Part shown: in pieces, positions 4,519 through 38,119 of the stretch
Layout: every line of letters starts with the position of its first letter
Position numbering within the stretch: the stretch's first letter is position 1
NCBI GenBank assembly: GCA_902800025.1
Contig: CADCDA010000002.1
Location: forward strand, 62,001-126,000
DNA length: 64,000 nt
Direction: 5' to 3'
Origin: an uncultured Erysipelotrichaceae bacterium
GTDB taxonomy: Bacteria; Bacillota_I; Bacilli_A; RFN20; CAG-826
Notes under the pieces: model-generated
What the model saw: the letters and a program-made list of their open reading frames with translations, nothing else
Databases searched by the model: none
Told to the model about the DNA's origin: nothing
Made by a program: the position numbers and the translations under genes

Positions 4519-4581
4519 AAAAAAGTTGAAAAATTTTATTAAAAAAATCGAATTTTTTTCCTCCTTTAATAAATGAGGAGG
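4519..4581 (+). promoter_or_regulatory. Competence-type promoter/leader element upstream of comEA (copy A)
   Basis: The region contains AAAAAAGTT, then TTTTATTAAA, then a 28-base block (4551-4578) with a T-tract, CCTCC, TTTAATAAAT and GAGG. The same layout, ungapped and with the 28-base block identical, occurs at 29724-29783 before the C39 peptidase gene. Copy A also holds CCTCCT (4560-4565), complementary to the comEA ribosome-binding site AGGAGG (4576-4581). It may be an alternative-sigma or activator-dependent promoter, a leader that hides the Shine-Dalgarno, or both. Confidence 0.6.
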
Positions 4582-4588
4582 TTTTTAT

Positions 4589-5119
4589 ATGATCAAGATC
4601 TTAATCGGGGTCGTACTAGTGACAATCGCGGTGATTGCAACTTTCTTAGTACTTGATCCAAACATCGGTATTCAGTCCGCCGGAAATGTGACTGAAGTCG
4701 CTAATACTTTTTCTGTCGTCGTTGAAGGAGAGGTATATAAAACAGGGACATATACGCTTAATGAAGGAGCGTTGATGTCTGATTTAATTGAAGCGGCAGG
4801 AGGAACCACTAATAACGCAGATGAGCGTGCATATTATGAAAGTGCAGTTCTCACTAGTGGAATGACTTACTATATTGCTTCTAAATATGATGCGACAGAC
4901 TTATGTAACGCGAGTGAGATTGATAAAGCTAATGTTAATAGTGATGATGCGACTACATTAGCTAAAATCAATGGCATTACTTCAACGATCGCTAATTCGA
5001 TTATTACTTATCGATCAGAAAACGGCTTATTCTCAACTTTGGAAGATCTTCTTCAGGTTTATGGAATAGGGAACGCTACATATCGAAAAATCCGTAACTA
5101 TGTGATTTTACACGCGTGA
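4589..5119 (+). CDS. comEA: Competence protein ComEA (DNA receptor with helix-hairpin-helix)
   Basis: ComEA is the membrane-anchored protein that binds incoming double-stranded DNA outside the membrane and hands it to ComEC. An N-terminal transmembrane anchor (residues 3 to 22) precedes an SLBB-like domain (about 45 to 100, VVVEGEVYKTGTYTLNEG). A C-terminal tandem helix-hairpin-helix follows (about 112 to 176), with INGITSTIANSIITYR and VYGIGNATYRKIRNYV. Length 176 is normal. The gene overlaps comEC by four bases (GTGA). The upstream element is shared with the C39 peptidase gene at 29809. Confidence 0.95.
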   Translation: MIKILIGVVLVTIAVIATFLVLDPNIGIQSAGNVTEVANTFSVVVEGEVYKTGTYTLNEGALMSDLIEAAGGTTNNADERAYYESAVLTSGMTYYIASKYDATDLCNASEIDKANVNSDDATTLAKINGITSTIANSIITYRSENGLFSTLEDLLQVYGIGNATYRKIRNYVILHA

Positions 5120-7116
5120 TAACTATAATTCTCTTCTTGGCTTTGTTCATTGGAATAAACATAAGAGAAAATATTATCGTTAGCCTTATAGGATTAGTTC
5201 TTTTATTAACGTTTGCTTTCTTTAAACGCGGTAAGAAACTAACTTTCTTATCTATTGTTATCTCTTTGATGGGTGTAGGCCTATCGTTTATCAGGCATAC
5301 ATTCATTAAGGAGAGTTATCAAGGAGTCATTATTGAAGTAAAAGACAATTATTATATCTTCTCATCAACTTTTGAGAAGATGTATGTCTATGAACCTAAT
5401 CATGATCGAGAGATTGGAGATGTTCTTTTAATAAATGGAGATAAAGAGCCTTTAGATTTTAAGATGTTAGAGTCTGAATTTGATTTTAAAGAATATCTCA
5501 ATCATAAGGGTGTTTATAATCAGCTATTTGTTAAAGATATTGAGGTTAAATTTTCTAATCCTATTCATCTTCATCAATTTAAGAAGAGTTTTTTGAATAA
5601 TTTTGATGAAAACTCAAAAGGAATAGTGGGCTCTCTTCTTTTCGCTAATAGCAAAGAAAGCGAACTCAGTTCAATTAGCAGGGAGCTTCATTTAGCAAGG
5701 CTTATATCAAGTAGTGGAATCTATCTTTATTTTATATATTCTTTACTACGGAAACTGCTTTTGAGATTTATTAAAAAAGATAAAATAGTGGATCTAATCT
5801 CTATTATTCTATTTAGTCCATATCTAGTTTTCACATTCCCAAAATTCATTGTCTTGAAATTTGTGACAGTTAGGATACTTGTGTATATAAACACGCATAG
5901 AATGAATAAGAGGTTTAGCTATCTAGATATACTTTCTATAAGCGGATTATTCTTTTTGATTCTTGATTATCATCTCGCATATCAAGACGGATTCATCCTT
6001 TCTTATTTTATTCCGATTATATCAATCTTTATTAATGGTTCGTTTAGATTTAAAAACGATTTCATCAAGAAGATGTTTTTAACTTTGCTTATCGCAGTTA
6101 GTTTCACTCCTTTTACAGTTAAATACTATTCAGAAATTTCTATATTGTCTTTGCCACTTCAACTAGTGGTTACACCTATCTATATATTTATCTTCATTCT
6201 ATCTATTCTTTGTTTATTTGGGATTCCTATATTTAACGTAGTTGGAGGAGTAATAAATATAATTACAAACGCTTTGAAGTTTATTTCTCCAATAATGATA
6301 AAAATATACGCTTCTAGTTATAGTCCAATATCTTTTCTTTTATATGAGATCATTTTCATTATTTTCTTATATTATTCGTCAATTAGATTAAGGCCGTTAA
6401 AGAATTTGTCTTTGATTGGTTTATTATTTTCTTTAACGATTCATATCATCCCACTTAGATATATGCTTCGTGATTATGTCTCTTTTATAAATGTAGGTCA
6501 AGGAGATTCAACCTTAATTAAGTATAAAAACACAACTATATTGATTGACACTGGTGGTAATAAATACGAAGATATCGCTACTGAAGTACTCATTCCATAT
6601 TTTAAAAAGAACCAAATATATCGTATTGATTTATTAATCACCACTCATGATGATTTCGACCATTCAGGAGCAGTTCCTTCTTTAGTGGAAAATTTTACAG
6701 TTAGAGAATATGTTAAAGACTATAAACTTTTTCCGATCAATAAAAATGGATTAGTCCTTACTAATTACAATGTTTATCCAGAATTATGGAAAGAAGAAAA
6801 TGATGAATCTTTAGTGATTGGGTTTAACGTAAATAGTTGTAACTATTTAATAATGGGTGACGCTCCGACAAAGATTGAAAGAGCGATGATGAATGATAAC
6901 AAATATATCCCTTGTGATATTTTAAAAGTCGGACATCATGGATCTAAAACATCAACTAGTGATGAATTCGTTAAATATTTAAAGCCAACTGTGGGAGTTG
7001 TTTCTTGTGGAAAAGATAATTATTATGGTCACCCTCATAATGTTGTGATTGCAATTTTAAAGAAATATGGTGTGTCTATTAGAAGAACTGACTTAGAAGG
7101 GACAATAACTTTTTGA
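5116..7116 (+). CDS. comEC: DNA internalization competence protein ComEC/Rec2
   Basis: This is the polytopic channel that carries single-stranded DNA into the cell during transformation. The 666-residue protein has N-terminal membrane helices and a short soluble OB-like domain (about 65 to 140). The competence membrane domain with many helices follows (about 170 to 455). The C-terminal metallo-beta-lactamase fold (about 460 to 666) has VGQGDSTLI, TTHDDFDHSGA, MGDA and KVGHHGSKTSTS. The start is GTG at 5116, overlapping the comEA stop. It is somewhat shorter than the Bacillus homologue. The reading frame is intact, which argues that DNA uptake is still under selection. Confidence 0.95.
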   Translation: MITIILFLALFIGINIRENIIVSLIGLVLLLTFAFFKRGKKLTFLSIVISLMGVGLSFIRHTFIKESYQGVIIEVKDNYYIFSSTFEKMYVYEPNHDREIGDVLLINGDKEPLDFKMLESEFDFKEYLNHKGVYNQLFVKDIEVKFSNPIHLHQFKKSFLNNFDENSKGIVGSLLFANSKESELSSISRELHLARLISSSGIYLYFIYSLLRKLLLRFIKKDKIVDLISIILFSPYLVFTFPKFIVLKFVTVRILVYINTHRMNKRFSYLDILSISGLFFLILDYHLAYQDGFILSYFIPIISIFINGSFRFKNDFIKKMFLTLLIAVSFTPFTVKYYSEISILSLPLQLVVTPIYIFIFILSILCLFGIPIFNVVGGVINIITNALKFISPIMIKIYASSYSPISFLLYEIIFIIFLYYSSIRLRPLKNLSLIGLLFSLTIHIIPLRYMLRDYVSFINVGQGDSTLIKYKNTTILIDTGGNKYEDIATEVLIPYFKKNQIYRIDLLITTHDDFDHSGAVPSLVENFTVREYVKDYKLFPINKNGLVLTNYNVYPELWKEENDESLVIGFNVNSCNYLIMGDAPTKIERAMMNDNKYIPCDILKVGHHGSKTSTSDEFVKYLKPTVGVVSCGKDNYYGHPHNVVIAILKKYGVSIRRTDLEGTITF

Positions 7117-29723: not shown

Positions 29724-29803
29724 AAAAAAGTTAAAGTTTTTTATTAAATTTTTTCAATTTTTTTCCTCCTTTAATAAATGAGGGAACTTTTCCCGGAAGG
29801 AGG
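29724..29803 (+). promoter_or_regulatory. Competence-type promoter/leader element (copy B) before the C39 gene
   Basis: Bases 29756-29783 are identical to 4551-4578 upstream of comEA. Further upstream AAAAAAGTT and TTTTATTAAA align without a gap. Copy B additionally has a small hairpin GGGAA/TTCCC (29782-29794). CCTCCTT (29765-29771) can pair with the ribosome-binding site AAGGAGG (29797-29803), with the small hairpin enclosed between them. Confidence 0.6.
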
Positions 29804-29808
29804 TAAAA

Positions 29809-31020
29809 ATGTATTTTATATCCCAACTCGGCGAACAAGACTGTGCGTTCGCTTGTCTTAAGATGATGCTCGCTAATTATCAGAAAGACAAAAACTATCT
29901 CTATTTACCTAACCCGAGTAATGAAGAGAAAAACTACAACTTCCAAGAACTGATAACGATTGCCAAAAAGTATCAAACCACATTTAAAGGAATCAAAGTT
30001 CAAACTCCACAGGAACTCTTTAAATGTGAAAAATTCCCGATTGTCGTTACTTTGGCTAAAAGAAGTGATCTTCGTCATAGTGTACTCGTATTAAATGCGA
30101 ATACGCGTTATGTGACGATATTTGACCCGAAAATTGGAAAAAGGAAAATGAATGCCGAGCTATTCTTTAAAGAATGGACCCAAAGAGCGTTGATCTTCGA
30201 GGACATGACCCCCATGAAGTGTCCGGAGGTCTATGGAGATTTTATTGATAAGAAAGACAAAATAATACTCCCAGTTTTGCAACTATTAAGCGGAATCTCA
30301 TTATTACTAGGTACTTACTTTGTAAGTGAATATTCGATATTTTATCTTCCAATCATCTTTTTGGCTTTATTCATCATCTTTGAAGTGTTTTATCGCTTTA
30401 GACTAGTCGGGGCGATGAAACGGTTAGATGAAAATATTTTCTCCCACAAGTTTAGAGTCAAAGAAAAGGAAGGATATATCGGAATATACAAAAGTATTGA
30501 GAGATATCGTCAAATCTCTTTAACCATTACTCCGAGCTTTATCTATTCCTGTTTGATTTCTTTATTCATCGTCATTATTCTTTTGATGAATGACTTGGTT
30601 AATATTACATATGTAATTCTCCCTATCGCATTAGCGGTTATCCAAGTCTTCCTCTATGATCCATATTACAAGAATCAAGAGCTACTAGTGATGGATAAAG
30701 AAAATGAAATCTTTGATTCAGAAACTGATTATCAATTTAAGATGAAATGTAACGACGCTCATAGTGTGGCTTACCAAGTCGGGATGGGAAGAAACATCTA
30801 TATTTATATCGAACTAGCGATTTTGCTTTTATCAATCATTCTCACAATGGTGATTTCGGGTACGATCAATATTACATATGTCATCTTCTACTTATGCATT
30901 ACAGTCTTTTTAAAGACTAATGTCTCTAAAATGCTTGAGTTCTCTTCTCAAAGCGAAGAATATGACTTTGTAAAAGCTAAATTAGTGAATTCTTTTGCAC
31001 AAACAGATAATAATTCATAG
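29809..31020 (+). CDS. C39-type peptidase fused to six-helix exporter-like membrane domain, no ATPase
   Basis: Residues 1 to about 130 are a C39 cysteine peptidase domain: QLGEQDCAFACLKM supplies the oxyanion Gln6 and nucleophile Cys12, with His90 (RHSVLVL) and Asp106 (FDPKIG) completing the triad. C39 domains cleave double-glycine leaders and normally sit at the N-terminus of bacteriocin or competence-peptide ABC exporters. Six predicted transmembrane helices follow (about 152-172, 176-196, 240-259, 264-284, 331-351, 354-370), arranged like an ABC exporter membrane domain. The protein ends at residue 403 with no nucleotide-binding domain. AAGGAGG precedes the ATG. The upstream element is shared with comEA, so a competence role is suspected. 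Confidence 0.7.
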   Translation: MYFISQLGEQDCAFACLKMMLANYQKDKNYLYLPNPSNEEKNYNFQELITIAKKYQTTFKGIKVQTPQELFKCEKFPIVVTLAKRSDLRHSVLVLNANTRYVTIFDPKIGKRKMNAELFFKEWTQRALIFEDMTPMKCPEVYGDFIDKKDKIILPVLQLLSGISLLLGTYFVSEYSIFYLPIIFLALFIIFEVFYRFRLVGAMKRLDENIFSHKFRVKEKEGYIGIYKSIERYRQISLTITPSFIYSCLISLFIVIILLMNDLVNITYVILPIALAVIQVFLYDPYYKNQELLVMDKENEIFDSETDYQFKMKCNDAHSVAYQVGMGRNIYIYIELAILLLSIILTMVISGTINITYVIFYLCITVFLKTNVSKMLEFSSQSEEYDFVKAKLVNSFAQTDNNS

Positions 31021-36813: not shown

Positions 36814-36847
36814 AAACTGAAAATTGTTGAATAGGGAGAATGAGACA

Positions 36848-38119
36848 ATGGGAAGACCAAAGAAAAGCGAAACAGCCGCAAAAGCTGCAACTAAAGAAAA
36901 AGCACCTGCAAAGAAAGCTACAAAGAAAAGAGACACCGAAACTCTTGCAACTTTAGCAGAGATTGAAGCTAAACTTTTAAAGAAAGCCAAAAACAATGGT
37001 GATCAATTAGAACAAGGCGACATTTATGAAGCCTTAAATAATTATGAACTCGAAGATGATGTCATCGATGACTTAATTGAATACTTTGCAAAGCAAAAGA
37101 TTGAAGTCATTTCTGAAGACGCTGAAGAAGAGGAAGAAGAAATCAATGATGAAGATTTCGATGAATCCAAAATGGCGGAACTCGAAGATGATGATGATTT
37201 CTTTGCTGAAGATCGAGATGACGAGGCCGAAGAACTTGATTTCGATATTGATCATTTGGACGTCACAATCGGTAGCGATGTCAAAGTTAATGACTCGGTT
37301 AAGATTTATCTTAAAGAAATTGGAAAATACGAACTTCTTAAACCAGAAGAAGAACCAATTCTCGCTGCTAAAATCTTAGAAGGCGATGAAGAAGCCAAAC
37401 AAAGACTTATCAACGCGAACTTAAGATTAGTTGTTAATATCGCTAAACACTATGTTGGTAGAGGTATGCTTTTCTTAGACTTAATCCAAGAAGGTAACTT
37501 AGGCTTAATGAAGGCTGTTGATAAATTCGATTACACAAAAGGATTTAAGTTTTCAACTTATGCGACATGGTGGATCCGTCAAGCCATCACTAGAGCGATT
37601 GCCGATCAAGCTAGAACCATTCGTATTCCAGTTCATATGGTCGAAACCATCAACAAGATGACCCGTGTTCAACGTCAATTAGTCCAAGATTTGGATAGAG
37701 ACCCAACCGCTGAAGAGATTTCAGAAGCAATGGGTGGAGAATTCTCACCAAAAAGAATTCGTGAAATCCAAAGAGTGGCTCTTGAACCAGTTTCATTTGA
37801 AACCCCAATCGGTGAAGAAGATGATTCACATTTAATTGACTTTATCGAAGATAAAGATAATGAATCACCTGTCGATTACACAACTAAAAAGTTGCTTAAG
37901 GAAGAACTCGATTCCATCCTTAAGGATTTAACTGATAGAGAAGAAAGAGTCTTAAGACTCCGTTATGGCTTAGACGATAACCGTCCAAGAACACTCGAAG
38001 AAGTCGGCAAAGAATTCGGTGTTACTCGTGAACGTATTCGTCAAATTGAAGCCAAGGCAATTAAAAAGCTCAAACACCCAACAAGACGTAAAAAATTAGG
38101 AGATTATCGTAACTCATAA
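36848..38119 (+). CDS. rpoD: RNA polymerase primary sigma factor (SigA/RpoD)
   Basis: This is the housekeeping sigma factor. The start is placed at 36848 ([12 protein letters not shown]) behind AGGGAGA; an upstream TTG would swallow that site. The 423-residue protein has a Lys/Ala-rich leader and a very acidic stretch (about 85 to 130). Region 2 contains [20 protein letters not shown] and [15 protein letters not shown], followed by region 3. Region 4 contains [19 protein letters not shown] and [17 protein letters not shown]. The promoter boxes proposed in this window match its expected TTGACA/TATAAT preference. Confidence 0.98.

Follow-up and report, generated by a model that had tools for sequence, protein, structure and literature searches.

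The element upstream of comEA and its copies in the genome

The window (the whole stretch of DNA analysed, 64,000 nucleotides) contains comEA with an overlapping comEC, a gene for a C39-type membrane peptidase and a gene for a primary sigma factor, and one and the same element precedes both comEA and the C39 gene (Table 1). The calls of ComEA, ComEC and the C39 peptidase in the original prediction were upheld by Pfam domains, and the shared sequence that it had described was confirmed: positions 4551–4578 and 29756–29783 are identical at 28/28 bases, the identity spans exactly 28 positions, and the parts upstream align without gaps (50/60 matches between 4519–4578 and 29724–29783). The 22-mer TTTCCTCCTTTAATAAATGAGG was found with up to three mismatches at only two places in the window, before comEA and before the C39 gene, and had no match at that threshold in 100 dinucleotide shuffles of the window. 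The 28-base identity recurs nowhere else in the window, and chance falls far short of explaining it.

Table 1. Coordinates of the genes and promoter features (window positions unless stated).
Feature	Position	Strand	Evidence
Element copy 1, comEA-comEC competence promoter and short leader	4519..4588	+	R1 profile E 1.8e-15; alignment
-35-like TTAAA, copy 1	4539..4543	+	Invariant in 19/19 copies (column counts); -35 assignment inferred
CCTCC + TTTAATAAAT, inferred -10 region, copy 1	4560..4574	+	Alignment, column counts, species-coherent core
GAGGAGG, inferred transcript start and comEA Shine-Dalgarno	4575..4581	+	Sequence; start inferred from C39 leader hairpins of relatives
comEA	4589..5119	+	Pfam HHH_3 and SLBB; NCBIfam comE family model below its cut-off
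comEC, overlapping comEA	5116..7116	+	Pfam Competence and Lactamase_B
Element copy 2, competence promoter of C39 gene	29724..29783	+	R1 profile E 2.9e-16
-35-like TTAAA, copy 2	29744..29748	+	Column counts
C39 mRNA leader: GGGAA/TTCCC hairpin directly after promoter, then Shine-Dalgarno AAGGAGG	29780..29803	+	Folds in 15 species, mean z -2.8
C39 (double-glycine type) membrane peptidase	29809..31020	+	Pfam PF03412, 75 bits, E 6e-21
Primary sigma factor	36824..38119	+	Sigma70_r2; "primary" called from size and strong match
Alternative sigma factor, 216 aa, inferred element reader	C1:237769-238416, outside window		Sigma70_r2

In the whole 1.57 Mb assembly the same 22-mer gave nine matches at up to three mismatches, and none was obtained with the reversed pattern used as control. 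One of the nine (L006) was judged to be a chance intragenic match, and a sequence-only profile of 64 columns (R1) was built from eight of them. With the R1 profile, 18 matches in the genome had E < 1e-4 and one more had an E of 0.028; by inspection all 19 copies lie upstream of a gene or short open frame and point toward it. The layout had been seen nowhere else in the window, which holds; across the genome, however, the number of copies rises from two to about nineteen. The cores are near-identical in this genome (G000), as they would be in a dispersed MITE-like repeat lying before genes by chance, but every copy faces its downstream gene, the flanks are unrelated, the genes behind the copies are linked in function, and in sister species the layout persists before orthologous genes although the letters are particular to each species. 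We find such a repeat hardly credible as the origin of the copies.

Besides comEA-comEC and the C39 gene, the copies precede recA, dprA (E 6e-69), two small proteins followed by comFA-comFC, a 60-aa peptide followed by radC, a small protein followed by a NERD-domain gene, a thioredoxin-like lipoprotein with a pcrA-type helicase gene behind it, and, on contig 9, an operon that holds the genome's only clear type II/IV-secretion ATPase. Two RhuM-type genes (G000 C7:50225 and C7:29570) also carry copies, others head a RelB/PIN-like pair, an ABC transporter and a 288-aa protein of unknown family, and five are found at loci with tiny hydrophobic peptides; the accessory loci under the element number about a dozen. 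In composition the downstream gene set matches a late-competence regulon. It is competence-centred and not competence-only, because some copies head non-transformation genes (RhuM, RelB/PIN, the ABC transporter and the tiny hydrophobic peptides). The competence regulon suggested in the original prediction, for which a profile scan had been set beforehand as the check, is supported by the copies before dprA, comFA-comFC, recA, radC and the pilus operon. ComX of the pneumococcus likewise has recA, radC, dprA and a prepilin peptidase among its targets (PMC6560143).

The tiny-peptide loci (G000 C5:85785, C24:1843, C4:174893, C16:11083 and C3:79038; L028-L030, L065, L068) encode hydrophobic peptides of about 20–28 aa, for example MELLVLLIVLLVVVGLLLKR, and in several the repeat CTTAAAGTAAGTCACATCTAGGGAAATGTCAAG comes next. 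These loci resemble type I toxin–antitoxin or small membrane-peptide modules under competence control, and an Rfam search of five stretches with such loci gave no match. Small basic proteins (MSRSEFRWNKKRKHY... and MSKKKIYNKHLERGRFY...) without a Pfam family were found to recur in competence operons (L026:5057-5924, L027, and behind radC in L043).

Inferred anatomy of the proposed promoter and its transcript leader

Column counts over the 19 copies showed that TTAAA, located 18–22 bases before CTC, is invariant (19/19), as are two A's ten bases upstream of TTAAA and a TTT just before the core. The inferred anatomy, for which there are no start-site data, consists of A/T tracts, TTAAA as a -35-like box, CTC(C)-(A/T)10 as the -10 region, and a transcript start near TG/AGG. 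If transcription begins at the G of TG/AGG, TTAAA falls at about -35 and CTC-(A/T)10 in the -10 region. This start is supported by the leaders of the C39 gene, since in 15/15 species a hairpin begins just after the TG, within five bases of the inferred start. The arms of these hairpins differ and yet stay complementary (GUAG/CUAC, GAAG/CUUC, GGGG/CCCC and others), and the folds have a mean z of -2.8 against simple shuffles.

For comparison, the ComX combox is TTMCGAATA with an upstream T tract (PMC6560143), and the SigH promoter is RMAGGRWWW-N11/12-RRMGAAW (PMC4754846). The ComX box CGAATA was found in 0/19 copies and the SigH consensus in 0/19, in agreement with the earlier statement that the element is not an obvious ComX or SigH box, and neither the SigA-type TTGACA-TATAAT (0/19) nor paired AAAA-N5-TTTT at ComK spacings (0/19) was present in any copy. 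The inferred promoter is of a new type and matches no ComX, SigH, SigA or paired ComK consensus.

The conserved CCTC...GAGG could instead form a hairpin in the RNA, masking the ribosome site or working as an attenuator, with the upstream part being an ordinary promoter. GAGGAGG does serve as the Shine-Dalgarno sequence in comEA, and in family members outside the genus CCTCC-N-GGAGG with T-runs abuts the start codon. However, the dyad is kept in G000 where the ribosome site lies further downstream (the C39 gene, the NERD operon and the 288-aa gene), the distance between it and the upstream boxes differs by no more than one base among the G000 copies, and in the C39 leaders the right arm pairs downstream instead. 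We therefore regard a hairpin of this kind as improbable. The dyad itself is not conserved in sister species, where the left arm varies (CCACTC, CCGTC, CCCT) and the right arm stays GAGGGG or becomes GTAGGG, and for want of this conservation the reading of CCTC...GAGG as an operator or RNA hairpin was demoted.

Some hairpins of other kinds were observed in related genomes. Perfect hairpins of ~19 nt are inserted in the promoter core of the C39 gene in G014 (L113; GGAAATAC-TAT-GTATTTCC) and of the peptide in G015 (L134; GGAATTAC-TTT-GTAATTCC), and both sit between the CYC box and the A/T-rich part. The leader of the peptide-radC operon is roughly 110 nt long (L132-L149), and in most genus members its initial GAGGGG.. 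is able to base-pair with a ..CCCCTC immediately ahead of the Shine-Dalgarno sequence, which makes a conserved long-range stem.

Drift between sister species and the candidate reader

An exact-pattern search of relatives had made the element appear unique to one species, as it returned only matches without the A/T layout, judged to be intragenic and due to chance; this was overturned by a profile search and by the orthologous upstream regions. In the genome G004, diverged elements were found before the orthologous C39 gene, thioredoxin-like lipoprotein, peptide-radC, a 257-aa gene and tiny peptides. The sister-species promoters of the C39 gene, the peptide and the Tad operon keep the layout, that is an A tract, a T tract, a short -35-like box, a spacer, a C/T-rich CYCT, an A/T-rich stretch, TG and a purine block, while the letters differ. 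The proposed scan of related genomes was borne out in that the layout precedes the orthologous genes examined, and it had to be modified in that the motif has to be adapted to each sister species.

Core similarity was 0.87 between different genes within one species as against 0.62 for the same gene between species (permutation p 0.0005). In the -35 half the values were 0.77 within species and 0.61 between orthologues, and further upstream they were almost equal (0.56 within and 0.54 between). For these tests the cores were selected visually around the TG anchor, the 0.87/0.62 test did not include species that are nearly identical, and the permutation ignores phylogeny, so the p value is only indicative. 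That promoters of unrelated genes are much more alike within a species than orthologous ones are between species argues for one trans-acting factor reading them; the coherence is the pattern expected of a reader drifting in specificity.

Only two proteins with Sigma70_r2 were detected in the genome, the primary sigma factor and a 216-aa alternative sigma factor. The alternative sigma is placed between rlmB and an ecfA-type ABC gene in 19/19 genus genomes, with the rlmB-type gene directly upstream in all 19, and in G000 the gene order is cysS-rlmB-sigma. In other Bacilli, cysS-rlmB-sigH is the neighbourhood of sigH. The protein scored below the cut-offs of the NCBIfam SigH models (20.6 of 208 bits and 16.6 of 294.8 bits), and its median pairwise identity was found to be 26%, as compared to 48% for C39 and 65% for TadA. 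Promoter and sigma distances showed a weak correlation (r 0.27, p 0.02), which was not significant in a partial Mantel test with C39 distance controlled (partial r 0.11, p 0.23). SigH is known to drive com genes in S. aureus (PMC3486894), L. sakei (PMC3364868) and Listeria (PMC4754846).

These results together suggested that the element is likely to be the promoter and the first transcribed bases of a competence regulon that is read by the fast-evolving SigH-like sigma encoded beside rlmB. RNA polymerase carrying this sigma would read the bipartite element, and production of the sigma would then switch on the genes for DNA uptake (Tad pilus, ComEA/EC, ComFA) and, at the same time, those for recombination (DprA, RecA, RadC) and for pilin maturation (C39). 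This explanation rests on no expression or start-site data, and the targets that are not transformation genes, several in number, count against reading the element as a competence-regulon promoter. The alternative sigma is the best-supported reader because it is the only one detected; that it reads the element is inferred and not shown, there being no binding data, and another regulator could be missing, as the assembly is 95% complete. Of the earlier proposal, the competence regulon stands, although some of its targets are not transformation genes, and the alternative sigma factor remains an inference.

Alternatively, polymerase with the primary sigma might transcribe the same regulon under the influence of a DNA-binding protein, an activator or a repressor, that either is ComK-like or recognises the CCTC-(A/T)10-GAGG dyad. 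The conserved A/T tracts would suit an activator equally well and resemble ComK-type or UP-element DNA, and the 18–19 bp core is an imperfect dyad. The absence of paired ComK boxes and of TTGACA-TATAAT from all the copies speaks against such a protein, as does the loss of the dyad in sister species that keep the bipartite layout, and we hold it to be unlikely.

The C39 peptidase, the putative Tad-type pilus and known systems

The Pfam search of the C39 protein returned nothing besides PF03412, with no ATPase domain detected, and its sequence relatives in the PDB are ComA PEP and PCAT1. The predicted catalytic residues Cys12, His90 and Asp106 are invariant in four orthologues; the AF2 model was too poor for a fold search (pLDDT 51). 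All 18 sister species have the C39 gene, and overall it occurs in 37/59 genomes. The 60-aa peptide before radC was found in 54/59 genomes and in 42/42 of the high-quality ones, and of 26 parsed loci all but one have a RadC-like frame behind the peptide, in some cases known only by a RadC-like N-terminus. In the leader of the peptide, positions -12 and -7 are L/M, position -8 is E in nearly every case and the G at -1 never varies; these positions are those of C39-type leaders. The peptide is prepilin-like, and its mature part, (A/E)AITLTAVMAVLA...VPGGWKF(T/S)W, comprises a hydrophobic helix and a short, almost fixed tail, unlike a variable bacteriocin or pheromone. Its maturation by the C39 peptidase is inferred and not shown: most genomes without a detected C39 homologue still carry the peptide, and the 66-aa pilin-like protein encoded in the pilus operon lacks a leader of this kind.

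The ATPase of the pilus operon scored 92 bits against TIGR03819, below the cut-off of 373, and its PDB relatives are VirB11, CpaF and FlaI. Behind it come two membrane proteins whose sizes and order match TadB/TadC, then a 113-aa protein and the 66-aa pilin-like protein, and this order is kept in the seven sister-species loci parsed. The TadB and TadC assignments rest on nothing more than size and order; for the TadB-like protein the AF2 model was too poor for a fold search (pLDDT 51). The pilus resembles a Tad-type or Tad-like one, with the ATPase match below the model cut-off, and no ComG-type ATPase was found in the genome. The A24 prepilin peptidase (PF01478) is absent from this genome and from 57/59 genomes of the relatives sample, this one included. 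Both A24-carrying genomes are without a TadA homologue, and in one of them the A24 gene lies in an operon with classical GFTLVE pilins; in no sampled genome with the TadA-type ATPase was an A24 prepilin peptidase detected.

As a tentative proposal, which may well prove wrong, members of this order would have a Tad-type DNA-uptake pilus with the 60-residue peptide as its main pilin, C39 would cut the leader after SG in place of A24, and the sigma factor and its promoter would co-diverge between species. No paper on C39 processing of a competence pilin was found in a literature search of partial coverage. A DNA-uptake pilus that appears to use C39 instead of a prepilin peptidase would, if true, be a new way to build a type IV-like filament. 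The regulon is concrete and testable for a large, mostly uncultured lineage of Bacilli, its promoter motif allows member genes to be found, and it seems to offer a natural example of a sigma factor that drifts fast in concert with its promoters while the regulon remains intact.

The streptococcal ComX (sigma X)/combox system likewise has one alternative sigma and a short motif before comEA/EC, comFA/FC, dprA, recA, radC, pilus and accessory genes. In contrast, the regulon described here lacks the CGAATA box, has a Tad-type pilus instead of ComG and C39 instead of the A24 prepilin peptidase, and its sigma adjoins rlmB and is very divergent. The SigH systems of Staphylococcus aureus, Lactobacillus sakei and Listeria share a non-ComX sigma activating com genes, a role inferred here for the sigma encoded near rlmB, but no AGGR-N11/12-GAA promoter was found in this case (0/19) and the sigma is far below the SigH family cut-offs. 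The Flp/Tad-dependent transformation of Micrococcus luteus has in common a TadA-type ATPase and a Tad-like operon with ComEA/ComEC and DprA, and it requires the A24 prepilin peptidase TadV, the Flp prepilins being cut at G/XXXXEY (PMC4322843), whereas no A24 was detected here and the candidate pilin reads SG/(A/E)AITLTAV. The C39 peptidases of PCAT/ComA bacteriocin and pheromone exporters share the catalytic domain, with ComA PEP and PCAT1 as sequence relatives; unlike them, the protein studied here has no detected nucleotide-binding domain, and the peptide found with it in the competence regulon is nearly universal and highly conserved, not a variable bacteriocin.
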